35,243 nucleotides of DNA from an uncultured bacterium (GTDB taxonomy: Bacteria > Cyanobacteriota > Vampirovibrionia > Gastranaerophilales > Gastranaerophilaceae), in NCBI GenBank assembly GCA_902766105.1, contig CACXCI010000069.1, forward strand, positions 1-35,243, written 5' to 3'. The notes beneath the pieces are model-generated. The model worked only from the letters and a program-made list of their open reading frames with translations. It did no database searches and was not told the DNA's origin. Below, piece by piece: positions 14,160 through 35,243 of this stretch; positions within the stretch are counted from its first letter, which is position 1; each line of letters begins with the position of its first letter. The position numbers were made by a program, and so were the translations under genes.

Positions 14160-16097
14160 ATGAAAAATAAGATTAGAGAAAAAATTATTGCAAGTGTTTT
14201 GTTATCAGCATTCATGGTAACAAATTCGGTAACGGCAACATTCGCTATGGAAGATTACGGTTATGGAGCAGGCAGACCGGCAATCAGATCCGGGGCATCT
14301 CAGGTTGGTATATCATCTGATGTAACCATTCCAAATGCCGGATCGGTTGTTAATTTGAGTTTGCGTGATGCAGATATAACTCAGGTATTAAGAATGTTCG
14401 CCGATCAAGCCGGAATGAATATTATCTTTACGGAAGGTGTAGAAGGTAATGTTACGATGGACTTAGTTAATATTCCTTTAAAGGATGCGCTAGATTTGGT
14501 TGTGAAAACTCAAAAATTGTATTATGACATAAAGGCAAATACTTTAGTTATTTCTACTGCCGAATCTGCAATGAATATGGCTGACAGGAGTAAAACGATG
14601 ACCGTTATTCCTGTTAAATATGTAAACGCTCTTGCTCTATCTCACTTTTTAAATAAAAGTGTATTTAGTCCGAAAGGTAAAGGAGCGACAAGACCGGGCA
14701 TGTCAGGTGGTTTTATTGCAGCAACAAACCCTGCAACTAATGATTTGATTATTACCGGAACAGCACAAGATGTTGCTATTGCAAGAAGTATAGTTGAACA
14801 ATTTGATAGAAAGCCATCAATAACTACATTTAAGGTAAATCATACAACTCCTGCAGAAATGGCTACTGCTTTGTGTACATCCTTGTTCCCTTCAATGTCA
14901 ATTGTGACAGATGAGGAAGGTAGTTCATCGGGCGGTGCGGCAGGTATTGTTACGGGATTTGCTTCTGATGAAGGCGGGGGAGATTCATCTTCAAGTGATA
15001 GCAGTAGTGGTGGTTCTTCAGGCTCAGGTTCTTCAATTTCTGTAGGCGGAGCTAAATTGGCTTGTGCGCTATCTTCAATACAAAAGACTGAAGAAAGTGA
15101 CAGTGAAGAAGGTGATACATATTCTCTTGAAAGTTTACCTTTGTTAAATATGTCAGTTTCATATTTCCCAACTCAAGGCACTATTCAGGTTGTCGGAGGT
15201 TCAGAATCTCAACTTGATATGATTAGAGAATATATTGCAATGAATGATAAAAAGACTCCTCAAGCGTATTTAGAGGTTCAAATTGTTGAATTAAATGAAT
15301 CAGGTAGTAAAACATTCGATAACCAATGGCAATTCTTGAGTAAGAATTTCTCATTTAATGCCGGTGGTACTAATGGTTTCCAAACTAACAAAATGTATCC
15401 TATATTTTGGGCAGGTCATGGTTATACATTAGTTGATCCGTCTAGTTTTGATGAAGAAACGGGTAGATATACTCCGATTGGATATGTTAGAAAATGGGGT
15501 TCTTCACCTCAGTTGATGTATGCTGTTAAATATTTGGTTGAAAATAAAAAAGGTCGTGTACTTGCTAATCCGAGAGTGTTGTTAACCAGCGGACAAAAAT
15601 CTGTTATTGATTTGACATCAGATTATGTATCTAAAGTAACAACCCAATACTTGGATGCGGGTTCATCTTCCGGTTCTGCCCAAGTTCAAAAAGATTATGA
15701 AATTAGTGATGATAATGGTATAAAAGTTGAAATCACCCCATTTATCAGCCCTGATGGTTATGTAACTTTGGATGTAAAACCAAAATATGCAACTATTGCA
15801 TCTACGGTTACGGACAGTACAACCGGTGATATTGCTGCAACTTTACTGCAAAGACGAGATCTTGACTTAAAAGGTGTAAGAATAAAAGATGGTGAAACTT
15901 TGGTTATTGGCGGCATGATTAGAGAAGCTGAAACAAAGAACGTAAGTAAAATACCATTCTTAGGTGATATCCCTGTTGTAGGCATGTTCTTCAGAAGTAC
16001 AACAACAAATAAAACAAAAGAGGAAATGGTTATAATGTTGACACCTCAAATTGTTGTAGATACAGAAGATGCAGTTGCTGAAGATGTAGCGTTATAA
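14160..16097 (+). CDS. Secretin, PilQ/GspD family
   Basis: Secretins form the outer-membrane ring of type IV pili and type II secretion. The protein is 645 residues with a signal peptide (about 1-29). An STN/N0-like domain spans about 62-132 (LSLRDADITQVLRMFADQAG). An N1 domain spans about 147-216. Next come residues of about 220-297 with a Ser/Gly/Asp-rich insert (251-297), and another N-type domain at about 322-365. The C-terminal secretin domain ends with IPFLGDIPVVGMFFR and a closing MLTPQIV, the family signature. AGGAG precedes the ATG. No pilotin gene is visible. Confidence 0.94.
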   Translation: MKNKIREKIIASVLLSAFMVTNSVTATFAMEDYGYGAGRPAIRSGASQVGISSDVTIPNAGSVVNLSLRDADITQVLRMFADQAGMNIIFTEGVEGNVTMDLVNIPLKDALDLVVKTQKLYYDIKANTLVISTAESAMNMADRSKTMTVIPVKYVNALALSHFLNKSVFSPKGKGATRPGMSGGFIAATNPATNDLIITGTAQDVAIARSIVEQFDRKPSITTFKVNHTTPAEMATALCTSLFPSMSIVTDEEGSSSGGAAGIVTGFASDEGGGDSSSSDSSSGGSSGSGSSISVGGAKLACALSSIQKTEESDSEEGDTYSLESLPLLNMSVSYFPTQGTIQVVGGSESQLDMIREYIAMNDKKTPQAYLEVQIVELNESGSKTFDNQWQFLSKNFSFNAGGTNGFQTNKMYPIFWAGHGYTLVDPSSFDEETGRYTPIGYVRKWGSSPQLMYAVKYLVENKKGRVLANPRVLLTSGQKSVIDLTSDYVSKVTTQYLDAGSSSGSAQVQKDYEISDDNGIKVEITPFISPDGYVTLDVKPKYATIASTVTDSTTGDIAATLLQRRDLDLKGVRIKDGETLVIGGMIREAETKNVSKIPFLGDIPVVGMFFRSTTTNKTKEEMVIMLTPQIVVDTEDAVAEDVAL

Positions 16098-16150
16098 ATT
16101 TAACTAAAAATAGAAAAACACACAACGAAAAGAAAAGTATTTGTAAGTCA

Positions 16151-18211
16151 ATGAATTCAATGATTTTAAAACTGAAGAATAGTATAGATCGAAAGCTGCT
16201 GGATAGTGTTGATAAAGCGCTAATGGGTAAGCACCGTTTTGTACCAATCAGTATTAAAGATAACTTTCTTTTCGTTGTTGTTTCTCAAGGTTCAAATAAA
16301 GAAAATATAACTGCTATATTAAAACAAACATTCCAAAATCCGATTAAGTTGATGCTTGTTGCCGATGATGATTTGAATGACTTATTATCAGAGTTTGTTC
16401 CTGCTTCGGAGTTGTCTGCTAATGTTTCTGAGCAGGCTGCGAGTGTGTCTCAAAAAGAAGCTGCCAAGCCTTCTGTTGAGGCCAATGTATCAGGGAAAAA
16501 ATTAGGTGAAATTTTAATTGCGCAAGGGCTTGTAAGCGAAGTTGATTTGATGAAAGCTTTGGCAAATTCTAAACGTAAGAATGTACCTATAGGTTCTACT
16601 TTGTATGAAATGGGTATTATTTCTTTAGAGCAATTAAAATCTGTTTTGCATGGACAATCTGGTATGGATATGGTTTCTGCGGATTTGCTCGCAAATCAAA
16701 AGAAATTTGTCAATATATTACCTGAAGATTTTATTAAGGAAAATGAAGCAATACCTGTTTCTTCTGATGGTAAAATTTTAACTGTCGGTGTTATAAAACC
16801 GTTAAAACCTGATGTTTTAAAGCAAATTATTTATTTAACAGGTCAAAATCCAAAACAGTTATTAATGACTCATCATGAATATCAGGAAGCTGTTAACACC
16901 TTTTTCTCTGAGCAAAAAAGAGCTACGGAAAAAATTATTGATGAAATTAAGTCCGAAACCTCTGAAGAAGATGAGGGAATGAACCTTCAAGATCAGGTAA
17001 AAATGGAGCTTGAAGATTCGACAGGATCTGTTGCAAAATTTGTTAACCAAATTATTACAAACGGTATTGACAACAAGGTTTCCGATATTCACATTGAACC
17101 GAGATTGTCTGGTTATATAGTAAGATACAGAAAAGACGGCATGCTTCAAAAAGTATTAGATGTACCCAGTAAAGTTGAAACAGCAGTTATTGCTCGTTTC
17201 AAGGTTATGGCAAGAATGAATATTGCGGAAAACAGGCGTCCTCAGGATGGTACGTTTTCAATATCATATAAAAATTGTTCTTACGACTTTCGTATAAATA
17301 CCCTTCCTGTTTCCGGAAAGGAAAAGGTCTGTATTCGTATTTTGGCGCCGGCTGTTTCATTATCTTCTGCGGATAAAGAAATTAAATTAGTTGGTGCTGA
17401 GCCTGAGGATATTCGTAAAATTAAAGATATGGTATCTTGTCCAAACGGTATTATTTTAACCTCAGGTCCTACCGGTTCCGGTAAAACAACAACTCTATAT
17501 TCTGTATTGAAGAGTTTAAATGATGAGTCGGTAAACATTACGACAATTGAGGATCCTATAGAAATTAAATTGGAGGGTATTAACCAATCTCAAATCAATG
17601 CTAAAGCGGGTATTACATTTGCATCATGTATGCGTGCAATTTTGCGTCAGGACCCCGATATTATACTTGTCGGTGAAATTCGTGACTATGAAACCTTAGA
17701 AATTGCGATATCAGCTGCATTGACAGGACACCTTGTATTAAGTACAGTCCACACAAACTCGGCTGCAGCAACGGTAACCCGTTTGATAGAAATGGGTGCA
17801 AAAGATTACTTGGTATCTTCTACATTATCAGGTGTAATTGCTCAACGTTTGGTCAGAAAGCTCTGTGATGATTGTAAGGAAGAATATTATCCAACCAGAG
17901 AAGAAGCTTTAAAAATTACGAAAAATCCTCAAGAGGTCGAAGAATTGATGAGGACGCCAATTTATAGGGCTGTTGGCTGTGCAAAATGTGGTTTCCAAGG
18001 ATTCAAAGGTCGTCTTGGGGTTTATGAAATAATGATGATAACAAAAGAAATCAAGAAATTAATTGCGCAAGGTGCTCATGATTTGGAAATTGAGGATTGC
18101 GCAATTGCAAATGGCATGACAACATTACATAAATCATGCTATAACCATGTTGTAAAGGGATTGACAACAATTGATGAATTTGTCAGAGTCTTAGGTTTAG
18201 CGGGTGAATAG
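16151..18211 (+). CDS. Assembly ATPase, PilB/GspE family
   Basis: This hexameric ATPase drives pilus or pseudopilus assembly. It is 686 residues. The N-terminus (1-85) is a small domain, and residues of about 116-170 resemble an MshEN domain (KLGEILIAQGLVSEVDLMKA, then IGSTLYEMGIISLEQL). The N2 domain includes SDIHIEPRLSGYIVRYRKDG. Walker A is GPTGSGKTT (439-447), the Asp box region is EDPIE, Walker B is IILVGEIRD, and the His box is LSTVHTNSAAATVTRLIEMG. Two CxxC pairs (CDDC and CAKC) form the zinc-binding knuckle. The ribosome site is weak. pilC-like follows 7 nt later. Confidence 0.95.
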   Translation: MNSMILKLKNSIDRKLLDSVDKALMGKHRFVPISIKDNFLFVVVSQGSNKENITAILKQTFQNPIKLMLVADDDLNDLLSEFVPASELSANVSEQAASVSQKEAAKPSVEANVSGKKLGEILIAQGLVSEVDLMKALANSKRKNVPIGSTLYEMGIISLEQLKSVLHGQSGMDMVSADLLANQKKFVNILPEDFIKENEAIPVSSDGKILTVGVIKPLKPDVLKQIIYLTGQNPKQLLMTHHEYQEAVNTFFSEQKRATEKIIDEIKSETSEEDEGMNLQDQVKMELEDSTGSVAKFVNQIITNGIDNKVSDIHIEPRLSGYIVRYRKDGMLQKVLDVPSKVETAVIARFKVMARMNIAENRRPQDGTFSISYKNCSYDFRINTLPVSGKEKVCIRILAPAVSLSSADKEIKLVGAEPEDIRKIKDMVSCPNGIILTSGPTGSGKTTTLYSVLKSLNDESVNITTIEDPIEIKLEGINQSQINAKAGITFASCMRAILRQDPDIILVGEIRDYETLEIAISAALTGHLVLSTVHTNSAAATVTRLIEMGAKDYLVSSTLSGVIAQRLVRKLCDDCKEEYYPTREEALKITKNPQEVEELMRTPIYRAVGCAKCGFQGFKGRLGVYEIMMITKEIKKLIAQGAHDLEIEDCAIANGMTTLHKSCYNHVVKGLTTIDEFVRVLGLAGE

Positions 18212-18218
18212 GTGATAT

Positions 18219-19433
18219 ATGACAATATATAATTATACAGCGATAAAAGATGGTAGTAATGAAATTGTAAAAGGTAAAGTCGAAGCAGAGGACTTGCGTG
18301 AAGCAAGAGCTCAGGTACGTGCTTTAGGGTTTACTCCTACAAATTTGACAGAAGAACAGTCAGCAAAGAAGGAAAAAGCTAAAAAACCGGGTAAGATGCC
18401 CAAATTAGGCTTAGCTGAGCAGATTGATTTTACGTCAACGCTTCAAATATTGGCCGCAGCAGGTATTCCGATTATCGAATCATTACTGTTTATTGAAAAT
18501 GATGCGGCTAAATTGAAGATTAGGCAGGCAGCAACCGAATTAAGACGTCAAATTATGAATGGTGGTACTTTTGCAGGTACAGTTGCAAAGTATCCGGAGC
18601 AATTTGGTCAGGTTTATATCGGTCTTTGTAAAGCCGGTGAAGATTCAGGTGAATTGGAAAAAACCTTAGACCGTTTGTTAGAATTGTTGACAAAGCAGGC
18701 CGCAATCAGAAGCAAGGTTATGGGTACTTTGATGTATCCTATATTCGTTGTTGTGTTGGCTGCATTTATCGTTGTTGTCATGTTGGTATTTGTATTTCCG
18801 GTATTTAAGGAAATGTTTGACTCAATGGGTATGCAGCTACCTTGGATTACCAGAGTACTTATGGAAATGGGTATTTGGCTAAAGAAAAATTGGTATACAA
18901 TTCCTATAGGTGTTGTTGCGATAATTGCATTAGTTGATTTCTTATTCAGATGGAAGCCGAGCCGTTGGAGAATTGACGATTTTGTATTAAAAGTGCCGGT
19001 TTTAACCGACTTAATTCAGTATTCAAATTTTGCGAATTTCATATCAGTTATGCAGGTTGCTTATGATGCGGGTGTGCCGATTTTGGAATGTTTGTTCTTA
19101 TCTAACTTGACATTAACAAATCACACATTGGGAACTCGTGTAGAAGAAGCAACAGAGAAAGTTCAACAAGGTCAGCATTTGTCTGCGGCTTTGCGTTCGA
19201 CAAGAACAATGCCTAAAATGATTTTATTTATGATTGCAACAGGTGAACAGTCAGGTCGTTTGGGGGATATGTTAGGTCAGGCCGTTAGTTATATTGATAA
19301 ACAATTAGATACTATTATTGATATTATGACAAAGATGATTGAACCGATAATGTTGATTGTAATTGGTGCGATTGTACTTGTTTTGGCTGCAGCGTTGTAC
19401 TTACCTCTATTTGCTTCTTATATGGGTATGTAA
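18219..19433 (+). CDS. Platform membrane protein, PilC/GspF family
   Basis: This is the inner-membrane protein on which the pilus rotates or is assembled. It is 404 residues with the two repeated T2SSF domains: GLAEQIDFTSTLQILAAAGI (about residues 65-84) and YSNFANFISVMQVAYDAGVP (about 267-286). Each is followed by a membrane hairpin. Membrane segments include YPIFVVVLAAFIVVVMLVFV and MLIVIGAIVLVLAAALYLPL near the C-terminus. It ends the operon, 18 nt before a terminator. PilM, PilN, PilO and PilT/retraction ATPase are absent here. Confidence 0.95.
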   Translation: MTIYNYTAIKDGSNEIVKGKVEAEDLREARAQVRALGFTPTNLTEEQSAKKEKAKKPGKMPKLGLAEQIDFTSTLQILAAAGIPIIESLLFIENDAAKLKIRQAATELRRQIMNGGTFAGTVAKYPEQFGQVYIGLCKAGEDSGELEKTLDRLLELLTKQAAIRSKVMGTLMYPIFVVVLAAFIVVVMLVFVFPVFKEMFDSMGMQLPWITRVLMEMGIWLKKNWYTIPIGVVAIIALVDFLFRWKPSRWRIDDFVLKVPVLTDLIQYSNFANFISVMQVAYDAGVPILECLFLSNLTLTNHTLGTRVEEATEKVQQGQHLSAALRSTRTMPKMILFMIATGEQSGRLGDMLGQAVSYIDKQLDTIIDIMTKMIEPIMLIVIGAIVLVLAAALYLPLFASYMGM

Positions 19434-30907: not shown

Positions 30908-31576
30908 CTACCTTATGTTAAGAAATTTATGAACTTGTGGAATAAGTCTTACATCTTTATATTTTTGTATAAATTTATCTAAAATTTCATTGTAAAATTC
31001 TGAATCTGCTGACATTTTATCTCCAATCATTTTTGGTTGAAGAATTAGAGATATGTTGTATGTTTTTGCTATATTGCAACAATTATTTATTTCTTCGTCT
31101 GTAATATTTTGGTCAAACACGATTTTTGCAAAAGTTTCAGTACCTTTGCAGCTTTCTAAAAATCTTTTATGCAGTGCCATTGTATCTTTGCCTGTTGAAG
31201 ATTTTAGTTTTATGTCTGCTGAAATTATGTCAATACAATCTTTTATTTGTTCTAAATTTTTATGTAAAGTTGCATTAGTTTCCAAATATATTTTTACAAA
31301 AGGTTTTATCAGGGGTAAAAATTCTTTCAGAAAATCACTATTTAACAATGGCTCTCCGCCTGTTAAAGAAATTGAATGAAATGTTGACAGATTATATTCA
31401 TCGGTAATTTTTTTATATAGTTGTTGAGGAGTATATTCAATACCTGTTTGAAATTCAGTATCGCAATATGAACAATTCAAATTGCAACCGCAAAATCTTA
31501 TAAACAATTGTTTATAACCTACAACAGGTCCTTCCCCCTGAATTGATGAAAATATTTCGTTAATTTTGGTTTTCAT
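30908..31576 (-). CDS. queE: 7-carboxy-7-deazaguanine synthase (radical SAM)
   Basis: It makes 7-carboxy-7-deazaguanine in the queuosine pathway. The 222-residue protein starts MKTKINEIFSSIQGEGPVVG, the QueE signature. The radical SAM motif is CNLNCSYC (Cys31, Cys35, Cys38), and LTGGEPLL binds SAM. The C-terminus RLIPQVHKFL is typical of the family. It overlaps the 3' end of the dnaJ-like gene by 17 nt. Other queuosine genes (queC, queD, queF, tgt) are not in this window. Confidence 0.94.
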   Translation of the reverse strand: MKTKINEIFSSIQGEGPVVGYKQLFIRFCGCNLNCSYCDTEFQTGIEYTPQQLYKKITDEYNLSTFHSISLTGGEPLLNSDFLKEFLPLIKPFVKIYLETNATLHKNLEQIKDCIDIISADIKLKSSTGKDTMALHKRFLESCKGTETFAKIVFDQNITDEEINNCCNIAKTYNISLILQPKMIGDKMSADSEFYNEILDKFIQKYKDVRLIPQVHKFLNIR

Positions 31577-32633
31577 TGATAAAATTCTTTCTCATATCAT
31601 CCTTTGACAAGTTTTTAAGCTTTTCATAAAGCTCAATTTCATCATCTGATAAATCTTGAGAAATTTCAATACATACCGTAATAATTAAATCGCCTATTTT
31701 GCCATGTTTTTTTATGCCTTGTCCTGCCAGTCTGAATTTTTGACCTGAACGAGTGTTTTTGGGGAGCTTTAATTTTATTATGCCGTCAAAAGTCGGGACT
31801 TTAATTTCTTCGCCTAGCGCAGCTTCAAATGGGGTTATTGGTATGTCATAATAAATATCAAGTTTGTCGGTCCTGATTTTTGTTTGGGTTTCTATTTTTA
31901 TATTTATGAATAGGTCGCCATTCGAGCCGCCGTTTTTACCAATTCCGCCTTCACCTTTTAGGCGTAGTTTTGCACCATCTTTTATTCCTTTCGGGATTAT
32001 TACGGTTATTCTTTTTCGCTTGGAAATTTCGCCTGTCCCGTTGCATTCCTCACATTTACCACCGTTAATAAAACGGTGTCCCATACAAGTCGGGCAGGTT
32101 TGGGTAGTCAGTATATTAATTATTCTTTTGCTCCCCGTAATAACTTCTTCAGGTGTTATTGTTACCTCTGTTGTTATATTTTGTCCTTTTTGGGGTTTTT
32201 TATTATCTTTTGCTCGCTTATTTTTTTTGAATTTTGTAAAAAAATATTTAATTGTTTTAAAAATTGAAAAATCTCTTTTTTGAACTTTTGTTTGATTTTT
32301 TTTAGGTTCATAATTCTTTTTTGTGTTTTTGTTATCAGAAGCAGAAGATGTTTTATATTCTTCTTCTGTTTTTTTGAATGAAGTGTTTTCTGTTGTGTCA
32401 GAAGTTTTAAATATACCCTTTAAAATATTATATTTTTCTCTTTCCTGCGGATTTGACAAGGTTTCATAGGCTATAGTTATCATTTTGAATTTTTCTATGG
32501 AATCTTTTTCTTTATTTATATCAGGGTGGTATTTTCGTGCAAGTCGGCGGTATGCAGATTTTATTTCTTCTGCTGTCGAATCTGCATTAACCTCTAAAAC
32601 TTCGTAATAATTAAGATTATTAAACACCATCAT
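31560..32633 (-). CDS. DnaJ-like co-chaperone with a single zinc site
   Basis: It stimulates a DnaK-type chaperone. The 357-residue protein has an N-terminal J domain with HPD at 36-38 and YEVLEVNADSTAEEIKSAYR. Instead of the usual Gly/Phe-rich linker, residues 75-150 are lysine-rich (KKNQTKVQKRDF, FKKNKRAKDNKK). The zinc region has only CPTCMG (Cys179, Cys182) and CEECNGTG (Cys193, Cys196), half of the four-repeat zinc finger, so one zinc atom. The C-terminal substrate-binding domains follow (VTITPEEVITGSKR, then IPKGIKDGAKLRLKGEG and FRLAGQGIKK). The ribosome site is weak and the start could be the second ATG. Confidence 0.9.
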   Translation of the reverse strand: MMVFNNLNYYEVLEVNADSTAEEIKSAYRRLARKYHPDINKEKDSIEKFKMITIAYETLSNPQEREKYNILKGIFKTSDTTENTSFKKTEEEYKTSSASDNKNTKKNYEPKKNQTKVQKRDFSIFKTIKYFFTKFKKNKRAKDNKKPQKGQNITTEVTITPEEVITGSKRIINILTTQTCPTCMGHRFINGGKCEECNGTGEISKRKRITVIIPKGIKDGAKLRLKGEGGIGKNGGSNGDLFINIKIETQTKIRTDKLDIYYDIPITPFEAALGEEIKVPTFDGIIKLKLPKNTRSGQKFRLAGQGIKKHGKIGDLIITVCIEISQDLSDDEIELYEKLKNLSKDDMRKNFINENQN

Positions 32634-32685: not shown

Positions 32686-34611
32686 CTAATCTAATTTTGT
32701 TAAATCAGAGATACTTGGGTCAAGTAATCTTCTGCCAACATTTTCAAAAGTAATTGAGCATAATGTTTTGTTGCCGTATTTAATAATTTTTTCAATAACT
32801 CCTCTGCCATATCTTTGGTGTGTTACGGTATCGCCTTGATTATACAGAGCGGACTTGTCGTTATCAGAATTATCATCCGGTGAATATATAGGAACAACCG
32901 GAGGTTGTTCTTCTTCGTAATTGTCGTCAGTCAAAATTTCACCTTCAACAATTTCTTCGCCTTCTGATATTGGTTGAGTTTCATCAATGAAATCTAAATC
33001 AGCTTCTGTCAATTCTTCGCTTTGCAAATCCGGCTCTGCTATTTCCGGTTCGTCAATTTCAATATTATCTTCAGAAATATCCTGCTCGTCATCTAAAATG
33101 TTTGCAACAGGTTTTATAATATTATCTGAGAATTCCTCTGTTGTTTCTTCCTCGATTTTTTCAATTTCGGGTTCTTCTTGCTCCTGAATATCCTCTATCT
33201 CAACTATTTCTTCTGTATCTTGAATTTTAGGTTCAGCAGTTGATGGTTCAACAGTAGTTATCGGTTCAAGAGGCGGTGTTTGTTCAAGCTCTTCAACTGA
33301 AAAATCTACAGGAATTTGGTTGCCGTAATCATCAATTTTTACCATTTGTGTGTTATCTGCTGCCGGAATAAATTGATATTTATCTCCCAATACATCATCA
33401 AGTGTTAAATCTGTTTCTATATCGCTCATTAAAACTATAAACGGAACATCTTGTGTCAATTTCCCACAAACAATACATTCATTGGTATTAAGTTTATTGA
33501 TAAATGTCCCAAATTCTACAAATTCATTATTAGTATTTTCGGGGTTAAAAACTATTATATTTTGTGCGTGTTTTTTTAATTCTTGTGCGTATTTGTATGA
33601 ACTGTTTACAAATATAGTTGTGAAGATATGGTTGTGGTTGATAATTTGTTTTAATAATTTTTTATCAGAATTGTTATCATTAAGCGGAACAAAGTAATAA
33701 ATATACTTATCAATTGAATTCAAAGTGTTATGGACAATTGATATAATTTCTTTTTGCAAAGAGTCTTCAACATCTTTAAGGTCAAGGATGACACAATTTT
33801 TAGCTTCTAATTTTTCTTTAAGAGCAAGAACTTCATCTTTAGTATTTGCAAATATATTTGCATCTCTGTATTTTAAAAGTTTATTTTTCAAAAGAGCCAA
33901 TTCCGGCATTTGAAGTTCTTTATATTGATTTGTAACCACGTTAACAAAATTATCTATAGGCAGAAATTTAAAATCTAATGAATTAATATATTGCTGAACA
34001 GCGTAAAAAATATCCTGAATAACAGCTTTTGTTGATGCTTCCACGCCCTCTAATTCGTATTCAAATAAATAATCAATCATTTCGGAATTTAGAGGTAATT
34101 TATAATCAACACCCAATTTAATTTTTTCATAATCATCATAGATGTTGTCGGTATCAATAATAACACTTTTTTCTTTCATTTGAAAAAGTTGTTTTATACA
34201 ATTTGAGATAAAAGTTTTTTGATGAATATCTTTTTGAGTAAATACAGTAAGATTTCGTTCAAAAATAGAAACATCCAAAGAAAGCATATTATCAGATTGT
34301 GCAAGATTTCCTATTTTTATAGGAGTTTCAATCGGTAAAAGATGTAAAAGTTCATCAAGAGGTAATGATGATATTTCTGCATTCATATTCGGTATAGAAC
34401 CGTCATAATTATCAACAACTCCATCTGATGTGAAAGTAAAAATCAATTTACCTATTGCAAAGTGATTTGCAGTATCTGATTTAAGATTAACAAATTGTGC
34501 AACATAAGATTTGTTACTCCCTGCCAGAACGATAAATCTGCCCAATATCGGGTTTTCGCTTTCTTCATATGACAATTTAACCAAATTATTCTTAATTTCA
34601 AGTAAATTCAT
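32686..34611 (-). CDS. HerA-like protein with degenerate P-loop and PcrA-type Tudor-like C-terminus
   Basis: The protein is 641 residues. Residues 20-60 (GRFIVLAGSNKSYVAQFVNL) and 95-115 fit a HerA HAS-barrel. The ATPase part has QKDIHQKT (126-133) where a HerA P-loop GxxGxGKT is expected: Lys and Thr are kept, the glycines are lost. VIIDTDNIY (150-158) sits at Walker B. Residues of about 351-398 (NIIVFNPENTNN, then NECIVCGKLTQDVPFIVLM) resemble the HerA C-terminus. An acidic disordered linker (about 438-588) leads to QGDTVTHQRYGRGVIEKIIK (592-611), which resembles the PcrA/UvrD C-terminal Tudor-like domain. GAGAGGG precedes the ATG. Confidence 0.68.
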   Translation of the reverse strand: MNLLEIKNNLVKLSYEESENPILGRFIVLAGSNKSYVAQFVNLKSDTANHFAIGKLIFTFTSDGVVDNYDGSIPNMNAEISSLPLDELLHLLPIETPIKIGNLAQSDNMLSLDVSIFERNLTVFTQKDIHQKTFISNCIKQLFQMKEKSVIIDTDNIYDDYEKIKLGVDYKLPLNSEMIDYLFEYELEGVEASTKAVIQDIFYAVQQYINSLDFKFLPIDNFVNVVTNQYKELQMPELALLKNKLLKYRDANIFANTKDEVLALKEKLEAKNCVILDLKDVEDSLQKEIISIVHNTLNSIDKYIYYFVPLNDNNSDKKLLKQIINHNHIFTTIFVNSSYKYAQELKKHAQNIIVFNPENTNNEFVEFGTFINKLNTNECIVCGKLTQDVPFIVLMSDIETDLTLDDVLGDKYQFIPAADNTQMVKIDDYGNQIPVDFSVEELEQTPPLEPITTVEPSTAEPKIQDTEEIVEIEDIQEQEEPEIEKIEEETTEEFSDNIIKPVANILDDEQDISEDNIEIDEPEIAEPDLQSEELTEADLDFIDETQPISEGEEIVEGEILTDDNYEEEQPPVVPIYSPDDNSDNDKSALYNQGDTVTHQRYGRGVIEKIIKYGNKTLCSITFENVGRRLLDPSISDLTKLD

Positions 34612-34733: not shown

Positions 34734-35243
34734 CTATGAATTTAATTCTTTTTGGTATTGATTATAAATATCAATAGTCAGCGGACAAATCATTAAATCT
34801 CTTTCAACAAGACTTTTGATAGTTTGTTTGTAGCATTGTAAGATAGCCTTATTCAATCCGTTTTTTTCTGTTAAATAACTTCTGATAGGTTGAGCATACC
34901 AATTTTCTCTTGTTCGTTCTTCAATTTTATCTGCAAGAAAAATTATTTTTTCAAAATCAGTCATATTAAGTTTGCCCAAGGTATGCCAGCGAATTGCGGA
35001 TAAAATTTCTTCATCATTCACACCGAAGGTTTGTTTTGCAACATAAGCACTAACCGGTGCATGCAGAGTTTTTTTGTTGCTTTTTTCGATTTCATCAACC
35101 TCGGGGATATTTTCTTCTATTAGCGATATTAATTTTTCAGTGGAAAAGCACTTGGCACAATCGTGTAGCAAGCCTGCCAAATATGCTTTTTCAGGTTCAA
35201 GGCTATATTTTACAGCCAAATTTCTTGCACATTCTGCTGTTCC
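34734..35243 (-). CDS. yqeK: YqeK-type HD-domain diadenosine tetraphosphatase, 5' part missing
   Basis: Hydrolyses Ap4A to ADP, a family assignment. The gene runs off the right edge, so its start is outside. The visible frame begins GTAECARNLAVKYSLEPEKA. The HD motif is LLHDCAK, followed by histidine in LHAPVSAYVA and WHT in AIRWHTLGK. The aspartate is in FLADKIEERTR. The first metal histidine of the family, usually upstream in RYEHT, lies outside the window. A translation that begins at 35219 would only start at an internal TTG, so it is not a real start. Confidence 0.88.
   Translation of the reverse strand, partial: GTAECARNLAVKYSLEPEKAYLAGLLHDCAKCFSTEKLISLIEENIPEVDEIEKSNKKTLHAPVSAYVAKQTFGVNDEEILSAIRWHTLGKLNMTDFEKIIFLADKIEERTRENWYAQPIRSYLTEKNGLNKAILQCYKQTIKSLVERDLMICPLTIDIYNQYQKELNS

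Follow-up and report, generated by a model that had tools for sequence, protein, structure and literature searches.

The 35,243-nucleotide stretch of DNA analysed here (the window; contig CACXCI010000069.1 of assembly GCA_902766105.1) comes from an uncultured bacterium of the order Gastranaerophilales, a gut-dwelling, non-photosynthetic lineage of close relatives of Cyanobacteria. On its reverse strand, an open reading frame at 32686..34611 (ATG at 34611 and stop codon at 32686-32688) encodes a protein of 641 amino acids, which comprises a HerA-type domain devoid of its ATP site (pseudo-HerA), an acidic linker and a Tudor domain, all described below with their positions on that strand. The protein starts with a HAS-barrel-like beta domain (residues 1-92; 34336..34611), which is strand-rich in the AlphaFold model and is aligned to HerA from model residue 1 by VIA-align, and continues with a RecA-like core of the HerA type (residues 93-405; 33397..34335), which harbours inserted helices at residues 176-250. 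The core is followed by the acidic linker, probably disordered as judged from its composition and pLDDT (residues 406-587; 32851..33396), and by a Tudor domain of the PcrA/UvrD type (residues 588-641; 32689..32850). This arrangement of a HerA-like N-terminus, an acidic linker and a PcrA-type Tudor in a single ORF, which the original prediction had read from the DNA, was confirmed by sequence profiles and by the AlphaFold model, and the architecture is well supported. The firmer statements on family membership rest on alignments of relatives, the single sequence giving weak matches.

Directly upstream, and cut by the window end, lies the gene for a YqeK-like HD-domain protein (34734..35243, reverse strand; Pfam HD, 8.7e-13), and a YqeK-like gene is found directly upstream of pseudo-HerA in 54 of the 69 unique members analysed. 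The downstream gene (31560-32633, reverse strand) encodes a DnaJ-like protein, whose central zinc domain covers the Pfam model (65 positions) only from position 39 to 65; DnaJ occupies this place in only one of the 69 unique members. Elsewhere in the window (14160-19433, forward strand), Secretin, T2SSE and T2SSF genes stand in a row, as in a type II secretion or type IV pilus-like cluster.

Using a combination of methods (profile-to-PDB searches, AlphaFold, Foldseek and VIA-align), we found that the predicted degenerate HerA fold, HAS-barrel included, is borne out. First, the profile of the N-terminal parts of the proteins of the order matched HerA of Sulfolobus (4d2i), the only significant match in the PDB (E=3.5e-7), and a second, collinear stretch of the same alignment covers the C-terminal part of the HerA domain. 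Second, the Pfam model DUF87 (HerA central domain) matched 8 of 29 members (best 6.5e-9); no HerA model, DUF87 included, was matched by the window protein searched alone against Pfam. Third, the AlphaFold model built from the window protein together with 28 relatives, with a pLDDT of mostly 80-94 over residues 1-415 and mostly confident values over residues 590-635 too, contains both a HAS-barrel and a RecA-like fold. Fourth, VIA-align ranked 4d2i first for this model (Z 24.1, rmsd 4.2, 379 residues, model residues 1-405), and Foldseek returned HerA-family chains nearly throughout the matches listed (best E 2.4e-16), the sequence identity to HerA chains being about 10-15% in the structural alignment rows. 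VirB4 was rejected as a better structural match (Z 21.5), because its alignment begins at residue 94 (94-405), whereas HerA chains align from residue 1. A chance resemblance is ruled out by the profile E-values, the structure and the conservation.

The ATP site of HerA has been lost. In the profile alignment, the P-loop AATGSGKS of 4d2i faces TQKDIHQK (residues 125-132; 34216..34239), where neither of the glycines nor the lysine is retained, and the Walker A pattern GxxxxGK[ST] is absent at the P-loop position from all 69 unique members; the sole such pattern in their first 460 residues occurs in one ORF, at residue 47, off the P-loop. Nor are the Walker B acidic pair and the SQRP/QRP motif of 4d2i kept in the aligned stretches of 29 members. 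In HerA of Deinococcus radiodurans, mutation of K175 or of D487/E488 impairs the ATPase activity (PMC9960219). From its sequence, the pseudo-HerA domain would not be expected to act as an ATPase in vitro; the loss of the P-loop does not in itself prove that nucleotide binding is lost. Asp153 (34153..34155), which faces the D of FDYHGEY in SsoHerA, is invariant in three alignments: the N-terminal one of the order, that of the families outside the order, where it is D155 of L088, and one that joins 23 sequences.

A partner with an intact P-loop was searched for in the window's genome with PF01935, and the only match was below the cut-off, in an ORF of 256 amino acids; no intact HerA was thus found there, and a few relatives do have other DUF87 proteins. 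NurA (PF09376) was found in one of 40 relatives and not in the window's genome, the count in the control rings being 7 of 14.

The linker contains 34% D+E and 3% K+R, and the pLDDT is below 50 across most of residues 438-585. Just before the Tudor stands a P-x-aromatic motif, present in each of the 68 members whose sequence extends to the Tudor; its Pro574 is invariant. Searched alone, the window protein scored 18.2 bits with the Pfam model PcrA_UvrD_tudor, below the 23.9 cut-off. Over the members, the same Pfam Tudor was matched at E<=1 by 29 of 29 (best 6.8e-7), and the Tudor profile retrieved UvrD/PcrA Tudor chains from the PDB (E=7.2e-8 to 7e-3), so that the assignment of the C-terminus to the PcrA type holds. 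In two relatives, the last 60-70 residues also match the PcrA model TIGR01073 (2e-6 to 4e-6). It is known that H681, W684, K712 and L714 of PcrA are needed for RNA polymerase binding (PMC5397179). At these places the window protein has H598, Y601 (aromatic), R628 (basic) and L630, i.e. the contact residues are kept or conservatively replaced, in a mapping read from printed alignments to UvrD and not from a direct alignment to 5dma.

The gene is conserved across the order. With the window protein as query (E<=0.001), orthologues were found in 40 of 40 relatives; the profiles found one match each in 129 of 130 genomes of the window's family and, in a separate draw from its genus and family, in 51 of 52, the same genome (G132) being the exception in both draws. 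In the genomes listed outside the order in these two draws, the N-terminal profile had no match. In three families of the class outside the order (f9, f14 and f15), the Tudor profile, in turn, retrieved another Tudor protein besides UvrD, about 600-2150 residues long; these proteins are divergent members, and their linkers are longer. In their N-terminal parts, 357 columns align with the profile of the order (hhalign 98.4%, E=1e-14); their own profile did not match HerA in the PDB, and their link to HerA rests on this hhalign result. Between the window gene and 11 relatives, dN/dS is 0.14-0.24 in the HerA part, 0.30-0.59 in the linker and 0.08-0.20 in the Tudor, these ratios being rough, as synonymous sites are near saturation. 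Both the HerA part and the Tudor are clearly under purifying selection as read from these sequences, which, together with the open frames in relatives, rules out a pseudogene.

The PcrA Tudor grips the helicase interaction motif, [VIL]-D-x-x-T-G-E-[VIL]-[VILT], in both the RNA polymerase beta subunit and UvrB (PMC8318588), and we searched for this motif in both proteins. It is absent from RpoB (1107-1109 residues) in all five relatives inspected, where TGE triads lie in other contexts and one reads SGE in the window's genus. In the window's genome, which is rated 99.75% complete, rpoB was not found (TIGR02013), probably owing to an assembly gap; the five relatives have it. UvrB of the window's genome does carry the motif, as IDNVTGEII, and so does UvrB, in T or S versions, in five further genomes of the order (six in all); a crude text search saw no UvrB motif in two genomes outside the order. 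UvrB scored over the TIGR00631 cut-off in eight other genomes searched and in neither G029 nor G036, two genomes that have the pseudo-HerA gene and a completeness of about 99%, which means that UvrB cannot be the only or universal ligand. The window's genome also encodes a UvrD with its own Tudor, and a competition for one ligand is therefore possible. From these motifs, UvrB appears to be a better candidate ligand than RNA polymerase in most genomes.

The pseudo-HerA protein probably serves DNA repair or transcription as a docking protein without enzymatic activity. In its more specific form, which we put forward tentatively as a possible explanation, it is a dead HerA scaffold, which has lost its ATP site and been kept for docking, and the Tudor of which docks on motif-bearing partners, UvrB being the best candidate. 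In this proposal, a HerA-family ATPase would have lost its ATP site in an ancestor of the lineage, and the HerA fold (HAS-barrel and RecA-like core) would serve as a binding or assembly platform, the HerA part perhaps oligomerising or binding DNA. The long, flexible acidic tether would carry the Tudor, which would grip hairpins bearing the helicase interaction motif. The Tudor may thus bind UvrB, and would then bring the scaffold to nucleotide-excision-repair complexes or compete with UvrD there; where UvrB is missing, other ligands would have to exist. We count in favour of docking the HerA fold, the loss of the ATP site, the Tudor, the conservation and the motif in UvrB, all of which, like the purifying selection and the lack of the motif in the RpoB inspected, were shown computationally, along with the genome's own UvrD and the absence of NurA. 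Against UvrB as the partner, the motif is short, UvrB may keep its hairpin for UvrD alone, and the neighbours (YqeK mostly, ComM-like elsewhere) do not point to excision repair. Taken further, to a lineage-wide platform that the Tudor recruits to UvrB or to another motif-bearing protein, and that acts as a UvrD antagonist or substitute, i.e. an undescribed repair accessory factor of Gastranaerophilales and related families, the proposal becomes rather doubtful.

It is unlikely that RNA polymerase is instead the ligand of the Tudor, by which a dead HerA ring would be held on transcribed DNA and transcription linked to repair or to conflict resolution. The Tudor is closest to the RNA polymerase-binding Tudor of PcrA/UvrD, with the contact positions kept, and the polymerase, unlike UvrB, is always present and could offer other sites; the RpoB proteins of the five relatives lack the motif, however, and that of the window's genome was not found. 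The binding of the tail to RNA polymerase, as had been claimed, is thus not supported by the RpoB inspected; of the original interpretation, the dead HerA, the linker, the Tudor, the lack of an intact HerA and the unreported fusion stand.

The gene neighbourhood invites another explanation, in which the dead HerA would be a recombination accessory, a platform for DNA or partners that works alongside a branch-migration or fork factor of the AAA+ type, while the Tudor does no more than recruit the ligands of UvrD-type partners. Several families of the order other than the window's have a ComM/YifB-family ATPase gene next to pseudo-HerA, families outside the order have a RarA-like ATPase gene there, and activity on DNA ends is known for HerA relatives (PMC9960219), which also speaks for this role. 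These ComM and RarA neighbours are, however, divergently transcribed and lineage-variable, and they are absent beside the gene in the window's own family, where the YqeK-like gene is upstream, and we hold such a role to be unlikely. In families f2-f5 (L036, L037, L038, L042, L044 and L049), a conserved protein of about 155 residues, of unassigned family, is encoded directly upstream; its AlphaFold model (pLDDT 87) had no PDB match at E<=0.001, and it was rejected as a general partner, since the window's genome has no match to it at E<=0.01. A motor subunit that still assembles and has a non-canonical mode of nucleotide binding, or that joins another ATPase in mixed rings, would account for the whole HerA fold and for an Asp153 kept even in the most divergent members, but is very improbable given the lost P-loop, Walker B and QRP positions and the lack, in the window's genome, of an intact HerA for such rings.

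Returning to the docking protein, its retention throughout an order of bacteria near Cyanobacteria suggests that it has a genuine function in DNA metabolism, one missing from model bacteria. The pseudo-HerA lineage would also serve as a natural experiment on the ligands of the UvrD/PcrA Tudor where RNA polymerase lacks the docking motif. Consistent with the original statement that such a fusion is not known from the HerA or PcrA families, we found no description of it in the literature searched, nor any report in which a HerA without ATP site is joined to a further module or in which a protein other than a helicase carries a PcrA-type Tudor.

Three groups of known systems can be compared with the window protein. 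First, it has the HerA fold in common with SIR2-HerA, DUF4297-HerA and similar anti-phage systems, which supplied the top Foldseek rows. In those systems, the ATPase is active and has an effector as its partner, whereas the window protein had no PADLOC match at E<=1 and its distribution is order-wide, and an anti-phage system was rejected. Second, the hexameric HerA translocases (4d2i of Sulfolobus and 7wrw of Deinococcus) have the same HAS-barrel, RecA-like core and inserted helices, in the same order; the window protein differs from them by the absence of the P-loop, Walker B and QRP motifs and of a NurA partner among the proteins found, and by its additional acidic linker and Tudor domain. 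Third, the Tudor domains of PcrA and UvrD (5dma, 6yi2, 7egs and 9dqs; PF21196) belong to the same sequence family and have the same contact positions as that of the window protein, and in PcrA, as here, a long disordered linker leads to the Tudor. In PcrA/UvrD, however, this Tudor is joined to an SF1 helicase, whereas in the window protein it is joined to a pseudo-HerA domain.
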